Below, in pieces: positions 7,356 to 18,853 of a stretch of 64,000 bases of DNA. Under the pieces are notes generated by a model. That model did no database searches. It was not told the origin of the DNA and saw only the letters and a program-made list of their open reading frames with translations. Origin of the DNA: Deltaproteobacteria bacterium. GTDB taxonomy: Bacteria; Bdellovibrionota; Bdellovibrionia; Bdellovibrionales; Bdellovibrionaceae. Location of the stretch: contig JAFLCC010000009.1 of the NCBI GenBank assembly GCA_017302835.1, positions 62,001 through 126,000 of the forward strand, written 5' to 3'. Numbering within the stretch: the first letter of the stretch is position 1; the number at the start of each line of letters is the position of its first letter. The position numbers and the translations under genes are program-made.

Positions 7356-7787
7356 CTAAGGAAGTAGTTTTTTCGATTCGTCAGGCGAAGGTAGCCGACA
7401 GTGGGTTCTTTTCTTAAAAAAACGATAACGATTTTTTGCAATGAAAAAGTAAATCAAATCACGCAGGGGCCTTGGAATAATAAAAAGTATTCCCATGGCT
7501 TTCCACAGCCCTCCTATATCAATTAAAATCATGAGAATAGCTGTGGACTTTTCAAGTGGCACCTGATTTCTTAAGTAGATGAGGGTGTCCTTTTCAATAA
7601 AATCAGATTTGTAAATTCCAGTTAAGAATTTCTGAGCCGTCTGACCTTGAAGTGAGGCAAAAAAGAATTGGTTCTTCGCATCTCTTCTCAGAAGCCAGTC
7701 AATGGCCTTATTACAAAGTTGGCAATAGCCGTCGAAGAAAATAATTTTTGTAGATTCAATGTTTTTTTCAATCGGGACATGGTTCAT
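7356..7787 (-). CDS. DCC-family (DUF393) thiol-disulfide oxidoreductase-like protein
   Basis: The 143-residue protein opens with the DCC-family signature IIFFDGYCQLC (Asp19, Cys22, Cys25), then NKAIDWLLRRD, and has a FASLQGQ segment and a GLWKAMG segment typical of the family. Members have a thioredoxin-like fold, but their substrates are mostly unknown. There is no signal peptide, so it is likely cytoplasmic. The start ATG follows AAGGATA. It is convergent with the giant lipoprotein and lies just upstream of another thiol-redox gene on the opposite side, which suggests a local redox theme. A weak hairpin, CTTCC/GGAAG with a T run, overlaps its 3' end at 7348-7366. Confidence 0.85.
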   Translation of the reverse strand: MNHVPIEKNIESTKIIFFDGYCQLCNKAIDWLLRRDAKNQFFFASLQGQTAQKFLTGIYKSDFIEKDTLIYLRNQVPLEKSTAILMILIDIGGLWKAMGILFIIPRPLRDLIYFFIAKNRYRFFKKRTHCRLPSPDESKKLLP

Positions 7788-7840
7788 AAAGTATCCTTGC
7801 CATGTGGAATTCTCAAGAGGAGGTTCAATTGGAAATTTAA

Positions 7841-9193
7841 TTAATTCTTCAATTTACTATTGAGAGTCGTCAATTTTTTAATGTAATTTAGAATCCGGCG
7901 GGATTTAATTTCTCTCTGTTCTAAAATGAGGAGAGTTTCTTGAATTAATTTTTTGGCTTCGGAAACTCTATTTAGCTTTACAAGGACATCAATCACATGG
8001 GCGGACACCTTTAAATTGTTGTCACCATAGGATAGCTGGAGTGCTTTCTGCCCCTTCTCTAAAGCCTCTTGAAAATTTCCTTCACTAAATAAAGATCGTG
8101 AATAATTGTGATAGAAAGTAAACTCCTCTGGAAATTTGGAAATCAGGTCTTTATAAATTTGATGAGCCTCAGAAAAGCGTCCCAACTTTTGTAGGGCATA
8201 GGCTTTTTCCAAATTATAACCACGATTGTATTTAGAATCTAAAGTGGATTTCTTAATTTTTGAATCAATCCAAATCAGAGTATCTAAATAAACTTTTTTT
8301 GATTCTTCATTTTTTTCAAGACCAGCCAATGAATCCGCTTTTAAAAAGTAAAAATCACTACTGGATGAATGAGTCTTCAAATTTAAATCACTGACGACAA
8401 GACCATATTCATGGGTCCATTTTTTTAAAGCGAGATTATTAGTCGTCTCACCAATGTTACCAAGGGTTTCAAGTTTCATTAAAACGGTGCTTTCTTTAGG
8501 GAAAGTGATAATAGAGTTTTTAAACGCAGAAATCAAATTTTCGCTTATTAAGTCTTCTTCATAAAGATTTAAAAGAGGTATCAAGCTAATTAAATCTCGT
8601 TGTTGTGTTGTCAGAAGGGGAGCTGCAATAGCTGTGGGAAAATATTTTAAAGAATGAGCATATTCGTTCTTTGAATAATAATAATTTATGAGTTTCCAAG
8701 CAATTTCTGTCGTCGGTTTCTTTTCGAATTTTGCAATGGATTCTATTAAGGAAATTTGTTTGTTTTCTTTTAGAGAAGAGAGTGTATTGAATAAAAGTTC
8801 CTTCGTAGGAAGACCTTTTATTCTGCTGATTTCATCGCCCTGACTGTTTGTGAAAATTAAAGTCGGGTATTCTTTGATCTTGAAATTCAATTTGAGTTTG
8901 CTTGATGCTTCAAGATCGCCATCCATTTCGAGCAGTACTATCTTTTTACTGAATTCAAGAAACCGAGAGCTTGCAAAATAAGTTTCTTTTAAAATATTGC
9001 ATGGGGGACACCAGATACCATAAAAGTAGATCATCAGTGGTTTATTTTCAGACTTAGCTCGACCAAGGGCGAGGTTGAAATCATTTTGAATAAACACTGT
9101 AGACGAAACAACTTTGGCCTCCGTGTTCCAGCAAAAGAGAAGAATAAGAAAGGAAAAAGAAGAAAGAAAAGAATATTTTTTAATTAAATCCAT
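7841..9193 (-). CDS. Exported thioredoxin-domain protein with TPR-like helices
   Basis: Residues 1-26 form a signal peptide (FSFLILLFCWNTEAK). A thioredoxin-like domain follows with the active site YGIWCPPCNILKE (Cys62, Cys65) and the cis-Pro segment KEYPTLIF. The remaining 300 residues are helical and contain TPR-like blocks, for example EKAYALQKLGRFSEAHQIYKD and NYSRSLFSEGNFQEALEKGQ. This layout resembles periplasmic thioredoxins fused to TPRs that reduce or isomerise disulfides in exported proteins. It is divergent from the redoxin gene at 9291, across 97 bases. The reaction direction (reductant or oxidant) cannot be told from the sequence. Confidence 0.85.
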   Translation of the reverse strand: MDLIKKYSFLSSFSFLILLFCWNTEAKVVSSTVFIQNDFNLALGRAKSENKPLMIYFYGIWCPPCNILKETYFASSRFLEFSKKIVLLEMDGDLEASSKLKLNFKIKEYPTLIFTNSQGDEISRIKGLPTKELLFNTLSSLKENKQISLIESIAKFEKKPTTEIAWKLINYYYSKNEYAHSLKYFPTAIAAPLLTTQQRDLISLIPLLNLYEEDLISENLISAFKNSIITFPKESTVLMKLETLGNIGETTNNLALKKWTHEYGLVVSDLNLKTHSSSSDFYFLKADSLAGLEKNEESKKVYLDTLIWIDSKIKKSTLDSKYNRGYNLEKAYALQKLGRFSEAHQIYKDLISKFPEEFTFYHNYSRSLFSEGNFQEALEKGQKALQLSYGDNNLKVSAHVIDVLVKLNRVSEAKKLIQETLLILEQREIKSRRILNYIKKLTTLNSKLKN

Positions 9194-9290
9194 GAGAATA
9201 TTGTAAGTGAGAATATAAGAATTTTGAAAGACGCGGAGGGTCTCAAAGTTTTCTTTGAAAATTAATACTTAGAGCCCTTACTATTAGAGG

Positions 9291-9836
9291 ATGGCTGTGT
9301 CTATTCCAATAACTATAGGAAGCATTTTGATAGCACTGTTTCTTAGTGTTAGCTCCTTTGCTGAGTTGAACATAGATGAAAAAAATTTGTTAAATGGCGA
9401 GCGTGTGACTTTGCAAGTTGAAAAGCAAAGTAAAGGAATAGTTATTCTTTTTCTGAGTGTTTCCTGTGGATGTACAGAATCGCATCTAGCACATCTTGAA
9501 AAATTAAATGAGGAGTATAGACAGGATTTTAAGTTTATTGGGATCCTTGCAAATGAAGAGGAAGATATAGGTGAGGCCGTATCTTTTTTCAAAAAGAAAA
9601 ATATTTCTTTCCCAATTGTTAGAAATGAAAAAATAGCGTTGGATTTAAATGCAACAAAGACTCCGAGCGTTTATGTTTTAGATAAAAAATTGCAACTTCT
9701 CTACAGTGGGGGAATTAGTAATAATGTGGATTTTAATAAATCAAATAAGTTGTATCTAAAGGAAGCTCTTTCTGAAATTACGAATAATCAACCAATAAAA
9801 ATTAAAAATCAAAAGGTTCTAGGTTGTTCCATATGA
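9291..9836 (+). CDS. Exported redoxin (AhpC/TSA-TlpA-like) protein
   Basis: This 181-residue protein has an N-terminal hydrophobic signal (ITIGSILIALFLSVSSFA), then a thioredoxin-fold redoxin domain with FLSVSCGCTESHL (Cys59 and Cys61 in a CxC arrangement), a cis-Pro segment KTPSVYVLD, and the C-terminal VLGCSI that many redoxins of this type share. CxC instead of CxxC is unusual and may indicate a peroxiredoxin-like or metal-binding role. The ATG at 9291 touches the GAGG ribosome site, and the GTG at 9297 has better spacing, so the true start may be two codons inside. Its stop overlaps the start of the next gene (ATGA), so the two are probably translated together. Confidence 0.82.
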   Translation: MAVSIPITIGSILIALFLSVSSFAELNIDEKNLLNGERVTLQVEKQSKGIVILFLSVSCGCTESHLAHLEKLNEEYRQDFKFIGILANEEEDIGEAVSFFKKKNISFPIVRNEKIALDLNATKTPSVYVLDKKLQLLYSGGISNNVDFNKSNKLYLKEALSEITNNQPIKIKNQKVLGCSI

Positions 9837-12637
9837 GTAAAGAATTTCTCAATAAGAATGGACATTATTTTTATAAATTAATTTTAGTCATAACTTTTTT
9901 AGTTTTCATATTGTTACTAGTTAAAGATATTGTCCCATTTGCGAGCCAAAATGCTTATTATCATTCGGTTTTTGGTTCAAATCTTTTTAGTAATTTTTTA
10001 GACCATTCTGGGATTTTACAACAAAGTCAATTTCACAATGGGTATGTGGATCAACACATTGGCTTTCATTTTTTAGTTTGGATCTCAAATTTGGTTTACA
10101 ACCCTGAATTGGCGATCAAGATGCTTACCTGTCTTTTTTTAAGTCTTACCTTGTTTCAATTGATTCGTTCTGAAAATTTTTCTAATTCAATGTTGATTTT
10201 TTCTTCTTTTCTTTTTTTCCTTTTTTTTCAATTTTATTCCTTTAAACGTCTTTTTTGGGAACGCCCTCAGTTTCTGAACTTATTTGTTTTTGTATATTAT
10301 TTATATAATTTAGGGAAAAGAAAAAACAAAGCGGTTTTGTTTCTTGCTTCCCTTGGGTTTAGTCTTGTTTCTTTTGAAACCGGAATATGGGTAATAGGAT
10401 TGAGTTTTGTTGATTATTTTTTTGGAGCTAAACGTAAGGATTATTTAATTGCAAGTTTAAGCGCTATTCTTATTTCCTTATTTGTATTCCCGTTCGGATT
10501 AGCAAAAACCGATTACGTGATCACACTTCTTAAACACAATTTAGTTGATGAAAAGTTTATAACAGAGTGGGCAGGAGCTAAAGAGTGGAAGTATCAACAT
10601 TTGATTTTAACGGCTTTTCTATTTATGTCGTTGTTTGTCCCAGAGCGTTGGCAAACGACAAAATTACGAATTTTCCAAATGAGCAGTTTATTGTTATTGC
10701 TCTTAAGTATTAAAATTGTTCGATTTGAGTATGTTTATTTCTTTTTCATCTTTCTTTGTTTTATTGAATTTTTAACTCATAGTTTGAACTCAAAAGGTAA
10801 ATATTTGGTTTCTTTGTTTTTGCTTTTAGGGTTTGTTTATTATTACCCGAAATCAGTTGAGTCATTTAAGGGAGATTCACAAACTATATTCAAGCCCATA
10901 AAATTTATTGAATGGTATCAGCAATCAAAATATAGTCAACAAAGGTTCGTAAACTTCAAGTGGGAGTACTGGAGTTCTCTGTTTTATTATGACCAGTTTA
11001 CAAAATCAGAACCTGGATTTTCAATGTTCATCTACAGAAAAAATGAAGATCTTGTGAAATCTTATAATTTCTTAAGATACCACTTGGATGATGTGGATAT
11101 TACCCACCTAACGTATTTCTTTTCAAGTTTTAATTCACGATTCTTATTAATAGATAATAATAGCAAATTTTTAAAAATATACAGAGAAAAAAAGTGGCCA
11201 TTAGTCCCGCTCTATACCGATGAATTTTTTACTTTTTTTGAGTTTCGAGATCCAAGGAGTTCTTTTAATGGCTATGATCAGAACAAGTCTTTAGCCGAAG
11301 ACTGTCTTTTATTTAATCGCTGTTCAAATTCATTCTTAAAAAGAACCATTAATAAGAATCAAGTCGATATTTTTATACCTATCCCAGAAGAGGATAGCAC
11401 CTTTCCACTGATTCCATTCAGTCTAGGCCATTTTGCACTTTTTGATAATGTTAAAAAAATCATTGTCGGTAGTGAGAATTTTTTTTTTAAATCAAAAACA
11501 GTTAGATTAGAACATAAAGCCGAATATTTTTATGAATACCCTTTTTATAGGATTGAGGATAAATGGATCTTAGCTGAGAAGAATCTTCTTTATACAAAAC
11601 CTTCTGATTTCTTGCATCATATCAATCAACTATTTGAACTAGAATTAAAAAAAAATCCAAATGAGTTATTTTACATTCTTGATGAGCTTATACCAAAAGA
11701 AAATGTTGGTAGGCCACGGAGGCTTCTTGGTGTTTTATATCTTTGTATGATCCCACAAAATCATCACTACTGTTTTAGTATTTTAGAGAAATATGATTTT
11801 TCAGAAATAGAGAAATGGGATTTAGGAAGTAAATCAATACTCGGACTAATTGAGGAGCAATTGAGTAGTTCTGAAATTGACAAGATTAATAGTAAACATA
11901 ATAAACTTTTTTCTAGACTTCCTATATTGGTTTCGGAACACTTTGATACTTATTTTCGTTTTTGGTATGGGAGCGCCCAAAAGAAAGATGAGTTATTAAC
12001 AGAACGCGAATATGTTTTTGCAGTTGGAGAGGCTCTTTCGTATCTATCATATAAAAAATCAAGCATTAGTTTATCGTGGCTGAATGAAGAGATAGATAAA
12101 TATTTTTTCTATTTTGATAAAAAACATGAAGTTTATAGCGTTAGATGGCTTCTCTCAATACTAGCCAATGAGTATAAAAATATTTCGGATAGGAATAATC
12201 AATTGGAAATAGAAAATAAGGTAAAACACGTATTAAATATAATATTGACGCAATTTTATTACCCATTTGAAACTCCTCTTTTTTTTAGAGGTTGTTTTTA
12301 CAATAAATCAATGGAAGGAAAAGGGAGTTCGTTTAATTTTGATCATCATTCTGGTTTAATTTTAGAGGGATTATCATTTTTTTCTAAATACGAATCAATT
12401 TCTGCTAGTCCTGTTTTTAAAAAGTTGGTTTATGGGTTTTCTAAATGTACTCTCAAGCAGCAAATTCGGTCAGAAAATTTTAGTAAAATAGGGGCAGATA
12501 AAATGGAATTGGGAGGGGTAAGGATTCAACCAGGGATAAAACAAATTAGAATTGATGTGCTAGCTCATCTAGGCATTGGTCTAAATCAGACAATATCAAA
12601 TGAAAAATTAAGAAAATTAATTTCAAATGATGAGTGA
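9833..12637 (+). CDS. Large polytopic membrane protein with C-terminal soluble domain
   Basis: The product is about 934 residues, starting at the ATG that overlaps the redoxin stop by 4 bases. The first ~350 residues hold at least eight hydrophobic segments (for example LILVITFLVFILLLV and SLFLLLGFVYYYP), interspersed with a segment GYVDQHIGFHFLVW that recalls GT-C/PMT-type glycosyltransferases. The C-terminal ~550 residues are soluble, presumably periplasmic and helical. Toward the end come FNFDHHSGLILEGL and a late IRIDVLAHLGIGL that recall alpha/alpha-barrel proteins. I do not recognise the family firmly. Coupling to a redoxin suggests that both act on the same envelope process. Confidence 0.6.
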   Translation: MSKEFLNKNGHYFYKLILVITFLVFILLLVKDIVPFASQNAYYHSVFGSNLFSNFLDHSGILQQSQFHNGYVDQHIGFHFLVWISNLVYNPELAIKMLTCLFLSLTLFQLIRSENFSNSMLIFSSFLFFLFFQFYSFKRLFWERPQFLNLFVFVYYLYNLGKRKNKAVLFLASLGFSLVSFETGIWVIGLSFVDYFFGAKRKDYLIASLSAILISLFVFPFGLAKTDYVITLLKHNLVDEKFITEWAGAKEWKYQHLILTAFLFMSLFVPERWQTTKLRIFQMSSLLLLLLSIKIVRFEYVYFFFIFLCFIEFLTHSLNSKGKYLVSLFLLLGFVYYYPKSVESFKGDSQTIFKPIKFIEWYQQSKYSQQRFVNFKWEYWSSLFYYDQFTKSEPGFSMFIYRKNEDLVKSYNFLRYHLDDVDITHLTYFFSSFNSRFLLIDNNSKFLKIYREKKWPLVPLYTDEFFTFFEFRDPRSSFNGYDQNKSLAEDCLLFNRCSNSFLKRTINKNQVDIFIPIPEEDSTFPLIPFSLGHFALFDNVKKIIVGSENFFFKSKTVRLEHKAEYFYEYPFYRIEDKWILAEKNLLYTKPSDFLHHINQLFELELKKNPNELFYILDELIPKENVGRPRRLLGVLYLCMIPQNHHYCFSILEKYDFSEIEKWDLGSKSILGLIEEQLSSSEIDKINSKHNKLFSRLPILVSEHFDTYFRFWYGSAQKKDELLTEREYVFAVGEALSYLSYKKSSISLSWLNEEIDKYFFYFDKKHEVYSVRWLLSILANEYKNISDRNNQLEIENKVKHVLNIILTQFYYPFETPLFFRGCFYNKSMEGKGSSFNFDHHSGLILEGLSFFSKYESISASPVFKKLVYGFSKCTLKQQIRSENFSKIGADKMELGGVRIQPGIKQIRIDVLAHLGIGLNQTISNEKLRKLISNDE

Positions 12638-12655: not shown

Positions 12656-13180
12656 TCAATGCTTCTCTTCTGGAATTTGATCGTGATTGATATTTTCGGC
12701 CTTTTCTTTTTTGATTTTAATTATTGTGTGCTTTATTCTCATTTTTTTTGCGTTGTATCCTGAATCCAATCTAAGTTCAACAACCCTCATCCAGTAATTT
12801 TTTGGTTCAATTTTAAATGCGTGATTTACACATAAACATTTAAATCTCAATCCTAAAGAAAGTTCTTCTGGTGTTGTTGAATGTGGTGCTGCAAAGAAAT
12901 AAATTGGTTTATCAGTGTTATTATAAGTGACCAAAGCAAATTTTTTTCTTCGATTTGGTTCAATGGTTATGGTGTTGTCCTTAATTATGTCCTTTAGTCC
13001 TGTATCATTTAGAGACGAAATATTCTTAGTATCCCATAATCTTACCTTGCTTTCGTCGACATGGTATATTTGCATTTTTAGATCCTTTGTATCTTTATAG
13101 GACCATTCAATAGTTATCTGTGCAGGTTCAGCAAAGCTAATTCCAGAAATAAAAAAAAATAACATAAATATAGTGCACAT
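12656..13180 (-). CDS. Secreted protein with a CxC segment, faintly Cox11-like
   Basis: I place the start at the ATG at 13180 because GAAGGGG stands seven bases upstream; an in-frame TTG lies farther out. The 174-residue product has a signal peptide ending SGISFA. The central part reads YNNTDKPIYFFAAP, then RFKCLCVNHAFKIEP and WMRVVEL. The order Asn-Thr-x-Lys-Pro-Ile, then F-x-C-x-C, then a conserved Pro recalls Cox11/CtaG copper chaperones (CFCF motif), but the overall match is weak. A Cu-binding or structural role is only a guess. The C-terminus is Lys-rich. The gene is convergent with the membrane-protein gene and divergent from the pseudopilin cluster. Confidence 0.6.
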   Translation of the reverse strand: MCTIFMLFFFISGISFAEPAQITIEWSYKDTKDLKMQIYHVDESKVRLWDTKNISSLNDTGLKDIIKDNTITIEPNRRKKFALVTYNNTDKPIYFFAAPHSTTPEELSLGLRFKCLCVNHAFKIEPKNYWMRVVELRLDSGYNAKKMRIKHTIIKIKKEKAENINHDQIPEEKH

Positions 13181-13219
13181 AATAGCCCCTTCCGTTATAA
13201 TCAAATGGTGAGGTAGTTT

Positions 13220-14290
13220 GTGTCAATAGTAATTAAAAATGTCATAAGAAAATTTCCTAAGAAGGGTTTCGCTTTGATGGAAATTGTTGTTTCGCTAGGT
13301 CTTTCTTTTGTTATACTATTAGCTGGAAGTGCGCTTCTAAAATTAACTTCAGAAACGAATAAAAATATTGAATCTGCCAATTCTATAAAGGAACTTAAAA
13401 ATGAATTGGCGAGTTTTCTAAATAACAAGCAAGCAATTATAAATACTCTTTCAAATAATGCATCTATGCTTTGTCTTTATACTGTTTCGAATTGTACGGC
13501 CGGTGTATATTCTTTTGACGTTTTTGACTCTTCAACAAATCCAGCCGCAACACAAGTGATTTCAAAATTTCAACAGACTGCAGGTCGCGGATTCACTCAG
13601 AATGGGATATCTTGTAATACTTACCCTTCATCAGATTGTCCATTAAGATATTCTCTTAGTTGGTCGCCACGGTGTGGGATCGATGTTTCGCGGTGTCGTT
13701 CTCCAGATTATGAGATTAATGCTAATTTTCAAGTTTCCGCTTTTTACAAAGGCCCGCCTTTAAATTCAAATTTATTAAATTTTAAAATTGTAAAAACTTC
13801 TGAAGGTGAGCAAACACAATTTTTGTGTGCTTCCATGAGTGGAGTTTGGGACCCATCTACAAAACAATGTACGGTTGGTATGGCAAATGATTGTCCGGCG
13901 GGAAGTTTTTTTGTTGGAATTAATTCTGTAAATACAAAAATATGTGTAAGTATTGCTGCGAATCTTAAATGTCCATTAGGATCAGTTGTTTATAAAGTGG
14001 ATTCCTCTGGAAATTTTTATTGTCGAAGTGGCTGTTATTTGGCTGGTTTAAATTGTTTCTATAATATGTGGACTGGTGCGACTAATTGTCCAACAACTGT
14101 GGGCTGGAGTAGTATGCAGGGTATTGTTCCCTTGGGAGCTATTTCTGGTTTTAGTATAAACCCAGGAGCAAGTGTTCCGCCACCACCACCACCACCGCCT
14201 CCTCCACCGCCTCCACCACCGCCTCCACCGCCTCCACCGCCGTTGCCACCACCATTACCATTACCACTTCCGATGGATGGAGGAAATTAA
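13220..14290 (+). CDS. Pseudopilin-like protein with polyproline tail (paralogue 1)
   Basis: The GTG start follows GAGGT at seven bases. Residues 13-24 read PKKGFALMEIVV, a class III prepilin cleavage site (Gly16/Phe17) with Glu at +5, followed by a hydrophobic helix; a type IV prepilin peptidase would process it. The body is Cys-rich, with LSWSPRC and a later repeat of the form MSGVWDPSTKQC and SFFVGINSVNTKIC. These two motifs recur in the protein encoded at 15157. The tail is about 22 consecutive prolines followed by Leu/Pro and MDGGN. It is probably a minor pseudopilin or pilus-tip-like protein of a type IV pilus or type II secretion-like machine. The three pseudopilin genes lie 2 and 15 bases apart, so they form an operon. 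Confidence 0.8.
   Translation: MSIVIKNVIRKFPKKGFALMEIVVSLGLSFVILLAGSALLKLTSETNKNIESANSIKELKNELASFLNNKQAIINTLSNNASMLCLYTVSNCTAGVYSFDVFDSSTNPAATQVISKFQQTAGRGFTQNGISCNTYPSSDCPLRYSLSWSPRCGIDVSRCRSPDYEINANFQVSAFYKGPPLNSNLLNFKIVKTSEGEQTQFLCASMSGVWDPSTKQCTVGMANDCPAGSFFVGINSVNTKICVSIAANLKCPLGSVVYKVDSSGNFYCRSGCYLAGLNCFYNMWTGATNCPTTVGWSSMQGIVPLGAISGFSINPGASVPPPPPPPPPPPPPPPPPPPPPPLPPPLPLPLPMDGGN
14177..14272 (+). repeat. CCN microsatellite encoding a ~22-proline run
   Basis: The tract is built from CCA, CCG and CCT codons, 22 in a row by hand count, then Leu/Pro codons. Mixed codons argue for selection on the protein instead of simple slippage, though the tract should still vary in length. Long proline runs stall ribosomes unless EF-P assists. 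Confidence 0.9.
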
Positions 14291-14292
14291 TT

Positions 14293-15141
14293 ATGAACTA
14301 TTTACGATTAAATTCTCGAGGGTCAGTTTTAGTTTATGTTATGGGTCTTGTTGTTTTAATTTTAGTTATCACAGGGGGGATTTTTTATAATTTATCACGT
14401 TTAAATAATAGAAGTGAGGGGGTACTTTTTGATGGTGCCACTGTGTCATTGATAGCAGAGCAAGTGTCATCAGTTATCGAAAATGAGGCTTCTTGGTATA
14501 AAACGGTTGTTAACGATGCTAATTTAAATTGTTTATTAGTTAATGGGGGGAACTGTTCGTCAGCCTATCTACCATTAACATTATATTTGCCGGATAACAC
14601 TATTTATACACAGAATAGTGGAAGTTTGGGTTTTGATCGTTATGGGTTCAGATGCTCCAATTATAGTTCAGTAGCACCAGATTCAAAATGTGTTTATAAG
14701 GCAAAATTATTCTGGAAATGTGATAGTGGAAGTTGTGTTTCTGTTAAATCAGCTGCCGATTTGATTGCCAAAAGTCCAAAAATAAAAATAAAAATTGAAT
14801 ATGTATTTAATTCTTCAACTGATTTAAATTCAGGAGAAATAAGTCTAAATCATAAAGATTTAGACTTTGTAAGGGGAGGAAATCAAGGGGGACTAAAGGC
14901 ATTTTGCGAGAGTATTTCTGCAGAAATGAATGCCGGCGGTTTACATTGTAGATTTAATCCGCCTTCTGCAGAAAATTGTCGATCTTTGCATTCTCGTCAT
15001 ATGGTTAAAAAACTTAAGGGTGGTCATGTTGAGTGTGAAAATCCAACAGCATTTGGGGATGGAACATTTCCATTCAAATGTAATTCAGGCTCAGCAATGA
15101 CTGGTTTTTTTAATGATCATCCCGTTTGTGATGTTTTTTAG
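14293..15141 (+). CDS. Pseudopilin-like protein lacking Glu+5 (paralogue 2)
   Basis: The ATG lies two bases after the previous stop and is preceded by GGAGG. The N-terminus NSRGSVLVYVMGLVVLIL is a prepilin-like signal with Gly10/Ser11, but Tyr replaces the usual Glu at +5, as in PulK/PilX-type minor pseudopilins. The body carries GFRCSNYSSVAPDSKC and AKLFWKCDSGSC, which align by eye with GISCNTYPSSDC/LSWSPRC of paralogue 1 and LNSCVFSGANC/ISWSPIC of paralogue 3. It has no long tail. The lack of Glu+5 suggests a tip or initiation subunit. It is the middle gene of the three-gene block. Confidence 0.75.
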   Translation: MNYLRLNSRGSVLVYVMGLVVLILVITGGIFYNLSRLNNRSEGVLFDGATVSLIAEQVSSVIENEASWYKTVVNDANLNCLLVNGGNCSSAYLPLTLYLPDNTIYTQNSGSLGFDRYGFRCSNYSSVAPDSKCVYKAKLFWKCDSGSCVSVKSAADLIAKSPKIKIKIEYVFNSSTDLNSGEISLNHKDLDFVRGGNQGGLKAFCESISAEMNAGGLHCRFNPPSAENCRSLHSRHMVKKLKGGHVECENPTAFGDGTFPFKCNSGSAMTGFFNDHPVCDVF

Positions 15142-15156
15142 TTATAGGAGGTTAAT

Positions 15157-16068
15157 TTGTTTGGCAAGTTGTTAAATAGGAAAGGAGCAACCTTAGTTGA
15201 GGTTCTAGTTGCAGCTGTATTGATAGCTGTTGCTTCATCTGGTCTTCTTTCTGCGCTGAGTGCATTTTACACGCAAAAAACAATTAGAGATATAGACAGC
15301 TCAATAGTGAGTCAAAAAGAAAAAATAATAGAACTATTAAATGCAAGAAATTCTTGGACTAGGATTATTGCCAATAATGGTCTAACTTGTTTACAATCTG
15401 CTGGGATTTCCTGCGCAAGTGGAACGCATGAGATTGCTGTATTTGATTCCAATAATATTAAATTAACTGATTCTAGTGCAAATGATTTTGGTACAGATCG
15501 ATATTTGAACTCATGTGTTTTTTCAGGTGCTAATTGTGATTTTAGATTTTTAATATCGTGGAGTCCAATTTGTGAATCGGCTGCTACCTGTATGAGCCCA
15601 CTAATTAAAGTAATTGGAACATTGCAAGTTAATCCTGGCATATCAGAATTAGTTCCGTACCCAAATAAATATGATTTTAATTTTATTAGGGGAACTATTT
15701 CAAATAATGCTGTTATGAATTGTCAGAGTTTAGGTGGCTCATATGATAGTGCTACAAATCACTGTTTTTTGCCAAGTGCAAATCAAACCTGCCCTCAAGG
15801 AAATATTGTTGTTGGAATTAATGCAAATGGTACTATTATCTGCGAACCGCTTATAGATTTTGAATGCCCAGCTAACACATATGCAAAGGGAGTTAATCCA
15901 GATGGGACTCTTCTATGTTTAGGAATTGCTGGAGCGTGTCCAGTCGATGGAAGTAGTAATCTAACTCCACCAACTGGATTTAATACTGATCTGAATTCAG
16001 GATTTACAACTTCCGTACTTGGCGGTGGTGGTGATTGTGGTGATGGCGGCGGAGACTGTGGCAATTGA
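15157..16068 (+). CDS. Pseudopilin-like protein with Gly/Cys tail (paralogue 3)
   Basis: A TTG start is set by a strong GGAGG five bases upstream. Residues 9-21 read KGATLVEVLVAAV: prepilin cleavage at Gly10/Ala11 with Glu+5 present, then a hydrophobic helix. The body has ISWSPICESAATC and, further on, CQSLGGSYDSATNHC, GNIVVGINANGTIIC and KGVNPDGTLLC, a Cys-bearing repeat also seen in paralogue 1. The C-terminus ends in a glycine-rich CGDGGGDCGN tail. It is presumably exported with the other two. No pilus assembly ATPase, platform protein or peptidase is in this window, so assembly must use machinery encoded elsewhere. Confidence 0.8.
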   Translation: MFGKLLNRKGATLVEVLVAAVLIAVASSGLLSALSAFYTQKTIRDIDSSIVSQKEKIIELLNARNSWTRIIANNGLTCLQSAGISCASGTHEIAVFDSNNIKLTDSSANDFGTDRYLNSCVFSGANCDFRFLISWSPICESAATCMSPLIKVIGTLQVNPGISELVPYPNKYDFNFIRGTISNNAVMNCQSLGGSYDSATNHCFLPSANQTCPQGNIVVGINANGTIICEPLIDFECPANTYAKGVNPDGTLLCLGIAGACPVDGSSNLTPPTGFNTDLNSGFTTSVLGGGGDCGDGGGDCGN

Positions 16069-16087: not shown

Positions 16088-17452
16088 ATGCAGAGTGGAT
16101 CTTCTAATATTAAAATCAATGAGAGAATATTTTCGCTGTGTACTCTTTTTATATTTTTATTTGATTTCAGGAGCTATTCCTTATCTATAAAGGCAGATTC
16201 AAGAATTTGCTGGCCTCATTGGGAACAATGTCGCGCGTTTTTAAATTTAAAATCCTTACCAGACTCTTATGAAATCAATATTTTATTTGCAATTTTATTT
16301 GCAGTAATTATTTTTGGAATTTTTGGAGTTTTGAAAGGTAAAGAAAAATATTATTTTGGTTCTTTGTGGATTTTAACGTTATTTAAGTTTTTTTATCAAT
16401 TTGTTTGGCATTTTTCAGGAATGCACAATTTTGAGTTATTTCATCTTATTCCTACTTTTGCCTTTTTAATAAATAAAAAAGATAGAATTTGGGGTGCGCA
16501 AGTATCTTGGGCCATTTGTTACTTTTTAGCGGCATTTGTAAAGATTCATGAATCATGGATTGTTGGTAGTTATTTTTCTTCTCTTTCTCTTGGACTTCCA
16601 CTGGTGCCTAAAATTTTTATTCCATTTTTAACTCAATCAGTAATTATTTTTGAAATTTTTCTAAGTTGGGGACTATTAAGTGAAAAGTATCGAAAAATGA
16701 GTTTAGTTTTATGGACTTTTTTTCATGTCTATTCTGTAGTTTTGGTTGGGTATTATTATCCTACACGTTGTATACTTATTTTGTATTCTTTATTCTTAGG
16801 CAAACTGTCTGAAGAAAAGAAATTTTTGAAAATTTCACCCTTATCTATTCTCTTCTTCGGGGTAGTTATTTTTTTTCAGGTGATCCCATTATTATACAGT
16901 GAAGATCAAAAAAGAACTTTAAGATTTGAAGGATATGCTTATAATATGATTGATGCAAATTTTCAATGCGTTAATAAAACAACTAAAATAATTAATGGTC
17001 TTCGGCAAGAACAAATAGAGCAAAATACGAGCTCAATGCATAGATGTAGCCCTCGATTAATACTTGAAAGAATAAAGATACAGTGTGAGAAAAATACAAG
17101 TACTCAAGTAGAATGGATATTGTATCAATCTATTAATGGAAATCCATTTTACGAAATTGTAAATGAAGTTAATGCATGTGAATTAAAGTTTTCTTTATTT
17201 GGTGAAAATAAATGGATAAAAAATCAAAGTGATAAATTAGTTGGTTATCCAAAGCATAACGCAGTAACGGGTAATCAAACATTCCAAATGCAAGCTATGA
17301 ATAGTATTATATTTAAAGATAGAGTCATTGAGAATACCTCAATTCAAACCTTCATTCTAAACCGATACAATTATTTTTATAGTTTTTATCTGCTTCTTTG
17401 GGTTGGCATGTTCACGTGGGTTTGTTTTTCAAATTTAAGGTCTAAAAAGTAA
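16088..17452 (+). CDS. Polytopic membrane protein, HTTM-like
   Basis: The 454-residue protein has about seven hydrophobic segments in the first 270 residues and a soluble C-terminal part with one final membrane helix (SFYLLLWVGMFTWVCF). The segment CYFLAAFVKIHESWIVGSYF and the later WTFFHVYSVVLVGYYYP resemble the HTTM domain, the membrane part related to vitamin K-dependent gamma-carboxylase. I do not see a carboxylase domain, so no reaction is claimed. It starts 19 bases after the pseudopilin operon and may belong to it. Its 3' end overlaps the convergent gene by 18 bases. Confidence 0.6.
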   Translation: MQSGSSNIKINERIFSLCTLFIFLFDFRSYSLSIKADSRICWPHWEQCRAFLNLKSLPDSYEINILFAILFAVIIFGIFGVLKGKEKYYFGSLWILTLFKFFYQFVWHFSGMHNFELFHLIPTFAFLINKKDRIWGAQVSWAICYFLAAFVKIHESWIVGSYFSSLSLGLPLVPKIFIPFLTQSVIIFEIFLSWGLLSEKYRKMSLVLWTFFHVYSVVLVGYYYPTRCILILYSLFLGKLSEEKKFLKISPLSILFFGVVIFFQVIPLLYSEDQKRTLRFEGYAYNMIDANFQCVNKTTKIINGLRQEQIEQNTSSMHRCSPRLILERIKIQCEKNTSTQVEWILYQSINGNPFYEIVNEVNACELKFSLFGENKWIKNQSDKLVGYPKHNAVTGNQTFQMQAMNSIIFKDRVIENTSIQTFILNRYNYFYSFYLLLWVGMFTWVCFSNLRSKK

Positions 17453-18853
17453 ATAGGGCGCTATTAGTTCTTCATTAAGAAAAATATTTTCATCTTCTTT
17501 ATTTAAGAAATATTTTGGTCTAAAAAAATAATTTCTCAAAATTAAATCGAAATATCCTTCTTTTAAAACATAAGCATTTGATTTTTGAAAATCAGATAAG
17601 AGTTCATAAAATAACTCAACTAAAGGATCATTTTCAGTTAGTCCAATCAAGACTAAATACTTTGAATTAAAAAGATCTAAATTTTCTTTAATGCTCTTCA
17701 AGAAGAACTCGATTGTTTCTTTTTGGATTTCAGGATATCGTTCTAGTTTGTATAATACTGCCCCGTAATAAGCGGCTCCATTTAACTTTGCATTAATTTT
17801 TATCTGATTTGATAAATTGAAATTTTTAGCTGCTTTTAAGGGTCTTAAGTCTACGAAAAGGTAATTTGAGTTAGCATTTAGAATAAAATTCGCATGAATT
17901 TCTTTCAATGAACTATTTAATATTTTTATTTTTTTATTTCTAAAATATAAAAATGGACGTTTCTTAAATTTGAAAAAGTAAGCAATTTCTAAGTTCAAAA
18001 TACTAAGATCACTAGAAGAATCACTTATAAAAACATTTGTACTTTCCTTCCAGGCGTTTATTTTTTCAAGCATATGGATATTAGTTGGGGAAACATAAGT
18101 ATCCCTAGTCATGGAGTTTGGGATATTTTTTTCATCTACAAGAACACCATTTGAACCAGGATCTTCTTTTAAAGCCGTTCCAAGTAAAACGAAACTATTA
18201 TTTAGGCTGAAGTTTTTTTTGGTGACTGTTGGTTCTGAAATTCTAATTCTTGATATTGATTTCAAATTAAAATGTGGAAAAAGAGAATTTAACATGTTGA
18301 GTTTTGTTTCAATAAAGGCATTGTTTTCATGATAATCACTCGCTTTATATATATTTACCTCATTGATAATTGCTTCCATCTCAAAGTAAAATCTATATGG
18401 AAATTGCGAGTGAGAGTCATATTCAATAACCCAAAATTTTATATTCCCTGGTTTAAGACACTTAGAGTATTCGGTAGGTAAGAAAAAAATATAATTTCTA
18501 TCTTTCGTAATAGCGGGGGCCAATTGTCTTGGGAGAAAAAAAATGTTGTCTTTAATATTTAAACATAAAGAGTCATTTTCTTTATAAAAAATGGGTGCTT
18601 TTAAAGCAGAATTTTGATTAAAAAAGTTAGTTTCAACTGGTTCACTAAGTTGAAACTTTTCTTTTGACTGGATAGGTTGCTTAATAAACTTTTTAATAAG
18701 TGGTTTTGATACGATCTGATTGCTTTTTTCTCTATTGTTTAAATAGTTAAATAAAAAAACGACTAATATAAAAACAGAAATGCCACCAACGAGTAATTCT
18801 ATTTTTGAAAAAGTAGAAAGCAAACGTAAAAATTTATTTTGTAAATTTCTCAT
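17435..18853 (-). CDS. Membrane-anchored protein of unknown function
   Basis: The 472-residue protein has one N-terminal membrane helix (LLVGGISVFILVVFLFNYL, near residues 20-40) after a basic cytoplasmic tip, and the rest is predicted outside the membrane. A charged linker follows, then a mixed alpha/beta body with segments such as FRFPYR-like aromatic patches, IRISEPTV and LVLIGLTENDPLVELFY. I do not recognise a family or a catalytic motif. It is convergent with the HTTM-like gene and sits 93 bases upstream of the start side of nothing shared; the next gene on this strand upstream in transcription is the DUF1513 protein, with which it may be co-transcribed. Confidence 0.6.
   Translation of the reverse strand: MRNLQNKFLRLLSTFSKIELLVGGISVFILVVFLFNYLNNREKSNQIVSKPLIKKFIKQPIQSKEKFQLSEPVETNFFNQNSALKAPIFYKENDSLCLNIKDNIFFLPRQLAPAITKDRNYIFFLPTEYSKCLKPGNIKFWVIEYDSHSQFPYRFYFEMEAIINEVNIYKASDYHENNAFIETKLNMLNSLFPHFNLKSISRIRISEPTVTKKNFSLNNSFVLLGTALKEDPGSNGVLVDEKNIPNSMTRDTYVSPTNIHMLEKINAWKESTNVFISDSSSDLSILNLEIAYFFKFKKRPFLYFRNKKIKILNSSLKEIHANFILNANSNYLFVDLRPLKAAKNFNLSNQIKINAKLNGAAYYGAVLYKLERYPEIQKETIEFFLKSIKENLDLFNSKYLVLIGLTENDPLVELFYELLSDFQKSNAYVLKEGYFDLILRNYFFRPKYFLNKEDENIFLNEELIAPYLLFRP

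Follow-up and report, generated by a model that had tools for sequence, protein, structure and literature searches.

Three paralogous, cysteine-rich prepilin-like proteins that may initiate and tip a type IVa pilus in Bdellovibrionota

The window analysed here, a stretch of 64,000 nucleotides, comprises bases 62001-126000 of contig C9 in a 3.63-Mb host genome of 35 contigs that is 99.98% complete and belongs to the Bdellovibrio lineage. On its forward strand lie three consecutive genes for prepilin-like proteins, designated minor pilin 1 (13220..14290; 356 residues, GTG start), minor pilin 2 (14293..15141; 282 residues) and minor pilin 3 (15157..16068; 303 residues, TTG start). They lie 2 and 15 bases apart, and clear ribosome sites, GAGG, GGAGG and AGGAGG, stand ahead of genes 1, 2 and 3, respectively. 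Each product begins with a leader and a hydrophobic helix of the kind found in the type IV pilin superfamily (class III prepilin signals), with the sequences KKG/FALMEIVV in protein 1, SRG/SVLVYVMG in protein 2 and RKG/ATLVEVLV in protein 3. The predicted mature N-termini are FALME, SVLVY and ATLVE, leaving glutamate at position +5 in proteins 1 and 3 and tyrosine at this position in protein 2. A previous, sequence-only reading of the locus had described the prepilin signals, the spacing and ribosome sites of the genes, and the present/absent/present pattern of Glu+5, all of which we could reproduce. Only protein 3 passes the Pfam cut-off for the N_methyl family, and the trio has no further Pfam match.

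Beyond the N-terminal helix, the three proteins share a cysteine-rich core. It extends from C85 to C268 in protein 1 (13472..14023, forward strand), from C78 to C254 in protein 3 (15388..15918, forward strand) and over positions 14530..15129 of the forward strand in protein 2, whose 12 cysteines are all among those invariant in proteins 1 and 3. In an alignment of the window with a second genus, Bdellovibrionales bacterium Ga0074139, 12 cysteines, one tryptophan and one proline are common to all three paralogues; the core recognised in the sequence-only reading is genuine, but its shared residues had been undercounted. The core of protein 3 contains two beta-hairpin repeats of the type CPxGxxxxGxxxxGxxxC. 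A late repeat, CPxGxxVVGIxxxGTxxC, had been assigned to proteins 1 and 3, where it is indeed clear, and a degenerate form of it is also found in protein 2.

The paralogy, formerly judged by eye, holds in alignments outside the helix. BLASTP comparisons give E-values of 4e-16 for proteins 1 and 3, 7e-13 for proteins 2 and 3, and 3e-5 for proteins 1 and 2, with alignments spanning most of each protein, and local alignment of the cores, excluding the helix, yields z-scores of 24, 12 and 6.7 for the same pairs (500 shuffles). With the cysteines masked, these scores are 12.5, 3.9 and 2.9, the last value indicating that the likeness of proteins 1 and 2 depends mostly on the cysteines and on their link via protein 3. 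Judged by their sequences, the three prepilin-like proteins are true paralogues, and the best reading of the alignments is that all three subunits would descend from one disulfide-rich pilin domain by duplication.

No single comparison with structural models or curated families is decisive by itself. The AlphaFold models of proteins 2 and 3 are poor overall (mean pLDDT 58-59), and the model of protein 3 is usable only over approximately residues 40-180, where the pLDDT by block is mostly 65-85 and the topology is pilin-like. All six of its top-ranking structural matches are of the XcpV, EpsI or GspI type, ahead of other pilins, albeit with weak Z-scores of 4.0-5.0; a Foldseek search of the PDB with this model returned no significant match. 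For the model of protein 2, structural matches were confined to helices. Sequence searches of the PDB with family profiles produced matches to the N-terminal helix only, in geopilin and PilE1. Likewise restricted to the helix are weak NCBIfam matches of protein 1 to ComGF and PRK10557, which we take from its name to be a PpdB-type model, and of protein 3 to ComGE, XpsI and PilV. Against the curated PilV, PilW, PilX, GspI, GspJ and GspK models, the trio gives sub-threshold matches to the N-terminal helix only.

The trio is part of a larger conserved block. Ga0074139 (G027; trio locus L039), which represents another genus of the same family, retains the gene order 1-2-3 together with four neighbours, with identities of about 27-42%. 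In the window, these neighbours are a 937-residue, large polytopic membrane protein (9824..12637, forward strand; 29% identity), a secreted protein of the LIC11469 (Lsa20) family that is encoded divergently from the trio (12656..13204, reverse strand), a 454-residue polytopic membrane protein (16088..17452, forward strand; 42% identity) and a 472-residue protein with a single transmembrane segment (17435..18853, reverse strand). Both polytopic proteins lack a Pfam family. Beyond the trio and these four genes, the 20 kb read at the Ga0074139 locus has no gene in common with the window. In a third genus (G080, locus L095), the trio is accompanied by a distant relative of the 454-residue protein followed by a PQQ/BamB-type propeller, by two genes of the LIC11469 family and by a homologue of the 472-residue protein. 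The absence of assembly genes nearby, as claimed before, is correct for the type IV pilus machinery, but the four conserved flanking genes had been overlooked. The expectation of co-conserved triplets in relatives is borne out by the ordered trio in Ga0074139, in part by G080, and by blocks of two or three genes across the phylum.

A tree built from the cores groups every window protein with its Ga0074139 counterpart in a starred clade; its deeper branching lacks resolution. Given these one-to-one clades, the triplication is older than the split of the two genera. The distribution of the close set is patchy, as it is absent from the other genomes of the window's genus. The tails of the proteins are partly conserved by position. 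Protein 1 ends in a proline-rich segment in two genomes: the run at 14177..14242 (forward strand) counts exactly 22 prolines, as previously noted, its Ga0074139 orthologue has 10, and the G080 orthologue has none. The tail of protein 3 (16018..16065, forward strand; GGGGDCGDGGGDCGN) is rich in glycine, aspartate and cysteine and is kept in kind in both orthologues. Protein 2 is without a tail in all three genomes, ending in CDVF, CDVF and CGAF, and its orthologues have tyrosine or tryptophan at position +5.

What might the neighbouring genes contribute? From its appearance alone, the 937-residue protein is possibly a GT-C-type transferase; it has no match in Pfam or the PDB. A relationship of the 454-residue protein to HTTM/gamma-carboxylase proteins, considered on account of a nearby DCC1-like gene, found no support in Pfam or the PDB. 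An alignment of the six trio proteins from the window and Ga0074139 is nowhere conserved enough to scan genome contigs; a scan with the 454-residue protein returned only Ga0074139. The family of this protein (L086, L082, L083 and L095, in addition to 16088-17452 of the window) precedes a gene for a PQQ/BamB-like beta-propeller in many Bdellovibrionota and also adjoins genes for long, Cys-rich secreted proteins without pilins. The product of 12656-13204 contains a conserved FxCLCxxH-like motif that by eye resembles a copper-chaperone motif of the Cox11 type. Upstream of the trio, at 7356-9836, a DCC1-like thiol-disulfide oxidoreductase, a thioredoxin-TPR protein and a redoxin are encoded in a row, and in G080 a TlpA-like thioredoxin gene lies directly upstream of the trio (L095 14025-14504); no thiol-disulfide gene was seen beside the trio of Ga0074139. 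Such nearby genes fit proteins that need many disulfides. We speculate that the two conserved membrane proteins of 454 and 937 residues could modify or fold the tip.

With a profile of the Cys core (A6; 25 sequences, five invariant cysteines), matches were obtained in 56 of 369 Bdellovibrionota genomes, whereas searches against Pfam and NCBIfam returned no family that spans this region. As defined by the sequence of this core, the trio belongs to an unnamed, phylum-wide family of Bdellovibrionota. Searches of plasmids and of about 20 genomes beyond the phylum set (centred on G367) retrieved no match and no new family match, respectively. At the loci read, the family is represented by 21 trios, 16 pairs and 18 single genes, with no larger set in the sample, although these proportions are biased because the sample favoured clusters with several matches. 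Of 33 curated sets whose signals are readable by eye, 23 contain just one member that has no acidic residue at +5, compared with 15 expected by shuffling (p = 0.006); the exceptions include four trios with three acidic +5 residues and three trios with only one. Some sets include one member of extended length (540-1100 residues) with TSP1, Calx-beta or Ig-like domains, and LamG and collagen-like matches are also present in the family set.

The host genome encodes PilA, a PilB-type ATPase, PilM and PilT (over its cut-off), all away from the trio, as well as several CpaF/TadA-like ATPases and a type II secretion system (T2SS) locus on contig C6 that has at least four pseudopilins of its own. The surroundings of the trio contain no gsp genes, and no tad genes adjoin it. 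Searches with two prepilin models, which miss proteins 1 and 2, revealed no other canonical minor-pilin cluster in the genome. TadE (PF07811) has no match in the genome, with a positive Caulobacter control, and PilY1 (PF05567) has none either, a result shared by the control genomes.

In known systems, the core minor pilins form a trimer of the GspI/J/K type, which both primes the filament and caps it; its K/X member (GspK, PilX) lacks Glu5 (PMC7541494, PMC7248040). The window trio similarly comprises three co-transcribed minor pilins, as in GspI-GspJ-GspK and PilV-PilW-PilX, two with Glu5 and one without. In Escherichia coli, ppdB-ygdB-ppdC are arranged in the order J-K-I with E, A and E at position +5; order and pattern are the same in the window, with E, Tyr and E. 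By analogy, protein 2 may correspond to GspK, PilX and YgdB, in line with the suggestion of the sequence-only reading that one subunit is suited for the tip or for initiation. In the fold search, protein 3 is most like GspI (Z 4-5, weak). To our knowledge, the subunit bodies of I/J/K or PilVWX sets are not obviously related by sequence, whereas those of the window trio are all paralogous, with a core of 12 cysteines. The window block further differs from PilVWX and GspIJK in having no H/FimU subunit and no visible GspK-type insertion; no PilY1 was found in it. Myxococcus xanthus possesses three minor pilin/PilY1 clusters with FimU, PilV, PilW, PilX and PilY1 (PMC7541494, PMC13190605), resembling the present family in that several paralogous minor-pilin gene sets would serve the tip of a type IVa pilus, but differing from the three related subunits of the window, for which no PilY1 was found.

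Based on these comparisons, we propose, with a probability of roughly 0.6, that the three proteins together initiate a type IVa pilus, or a closely related type IV filament, and form its tip. As PilA and the type IV pilus machinery lie elsewhere in the genome, the filament type is inferred; the presence of PilA, PilB, PilM and PilT, the T2SS's own pseudopilins and the failure of two prepilin models to reveal another canonical minor-pilin cluster favour a type IVa tip. In this model, prepilin peptidase would process all three proteins, each of which would fold with about six disulfides, and their N-terminal helices would pack them into a GspI/J/K-like heterotrimer. Protein 1 would take the J position (GspJ/PilW/PpdB-like) and protein 3 the I position (GspI/PilV/PpdC-like), with protein 2, lacking Glu5, as the K cap (GspK/PilX/YgdB-like). 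The complex would start the polymerisation of PilA, the major pilin, travel outward and stay at the tip, where a rigid surface locked by disulfides, together with the tails rich in Pro or Gly/Cys, would form the contact point. In related trios, adhesin-like C-terminal domains probably act in this capacity; TSP1, Calx-beta and Ig-like domains on relatives are what would be expected of a tip.

The nearest parallel in behaviour is KilLMN of M. xanthus, three-gene sets of minor pilins with many predicted disulfides that form the heterotrimeric tip of the Kil (Tad) pilus and have one variable terminal domain, with structural analogues reported in Bdellovibrio (PMC12075869). Both groups have three disulfide-rich minor pilins per set, one of them with a large and variable domain at its C-terminus, and occur as several variant sets per lineage in predatory bacteria. 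Considering also the CpaF/TadA-like ATPases of the host, the trio might serve as an exchangeable tip on a predation pilus of the Tad type, similar to Kil, with which prey is detected and attacked, but we regard this as unlikely. KilL, KilM and KilN are of the TadE/F/G type, and since no TadE domain was found in the genome, membership in this group is unsupported. Moreover, the signals belong to the type IVa class (GFxLxE) with Glu5 kept in proteins 1 and 3, no tad genes are adjacent to the trio, and the sequence family is not reported in PMC12075869.

The structural template provided by GspI, GspJ and GspK and the resemblance of protein 3 to GspI proteins would also suit a role as minor pseudopilins, either in the T2SS or in another pseudopilus devoted to secretion, where protein 2 would bind substrates. 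The separate pseudopilins of the C6 locus and the absence of gsp genes near the trio make such an assignment highly improbable, and the adhesin-like domains of relatives are ill-suited to a periplasmic pseudopilus. Alternatively, the trio could be Cys-rich surface proteins, anchored in the inner membrane or released, that reuse the prepilin signal and are matured by the neighbouring membrane proteins. The pilin-free Cys-rich proteins next to other members of the 454-residue family and the thiol-disulfide genes upstream of the trio are compatible with this idea, which we nevertheless consider quite improbable in view of the long alpha1 helices, the conservation of Glu5 in two of the three proteins, the pilin-like topology and I-type matches of the protein 3 model, and the recurrence of two- and three-subunit sets with one Glu5-less member.

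What is the relevance of a tip built in this manner? Type IV pili are required for Bdellovibrio predation, according to Evans et al. 2007 as cited in PMC8833165. In the literature, we found no description of what sits at the type IVa pilus tip in this phylum; a family of tip candidates that is defined by sequence, spans the phylum and has a single variable adhesive module in each set makes the question testable. The trio also illustrates a route by which one duplicated domain could give rise to an I/J/K-type heterotrimer. As a tentative and rather doubtful generalisation, Bdellovibrionota may start and tip type IVa pili not with FimU-PilVWX-PilY1 but with exchangeable heterotrimers whose subunits are paralogues of one another, all made from one pilin domain locked by disulfides. 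What each pilus grips, prey included, would then depend on the variable tails and domains (poly-Pro, Gly/Cys, TSP1, Calx-beta, Ig-like), and modification or folding of the tip would fall to the membrane proteins encoded nearby.

Several individual loci deserve mention. Two family pilins (L040 11502-13124 and L150 3941-5722) bear thrombospondin type 1 repeats, which are otherwise best known from animal extracellular proteins. The host genome contains a second, distant set on contig C7 (L056 8354-12204), consisting of a 1034-residue prepilin-like protein and a Glu5-less protein of 267 residues. In Ga0074139, the reading frame called for pilin 2 (L039 11074-12072) overlaps the 3' end of pilin 1 (10191-11216); the called start is probably wrong, with the true start at MNQKG.
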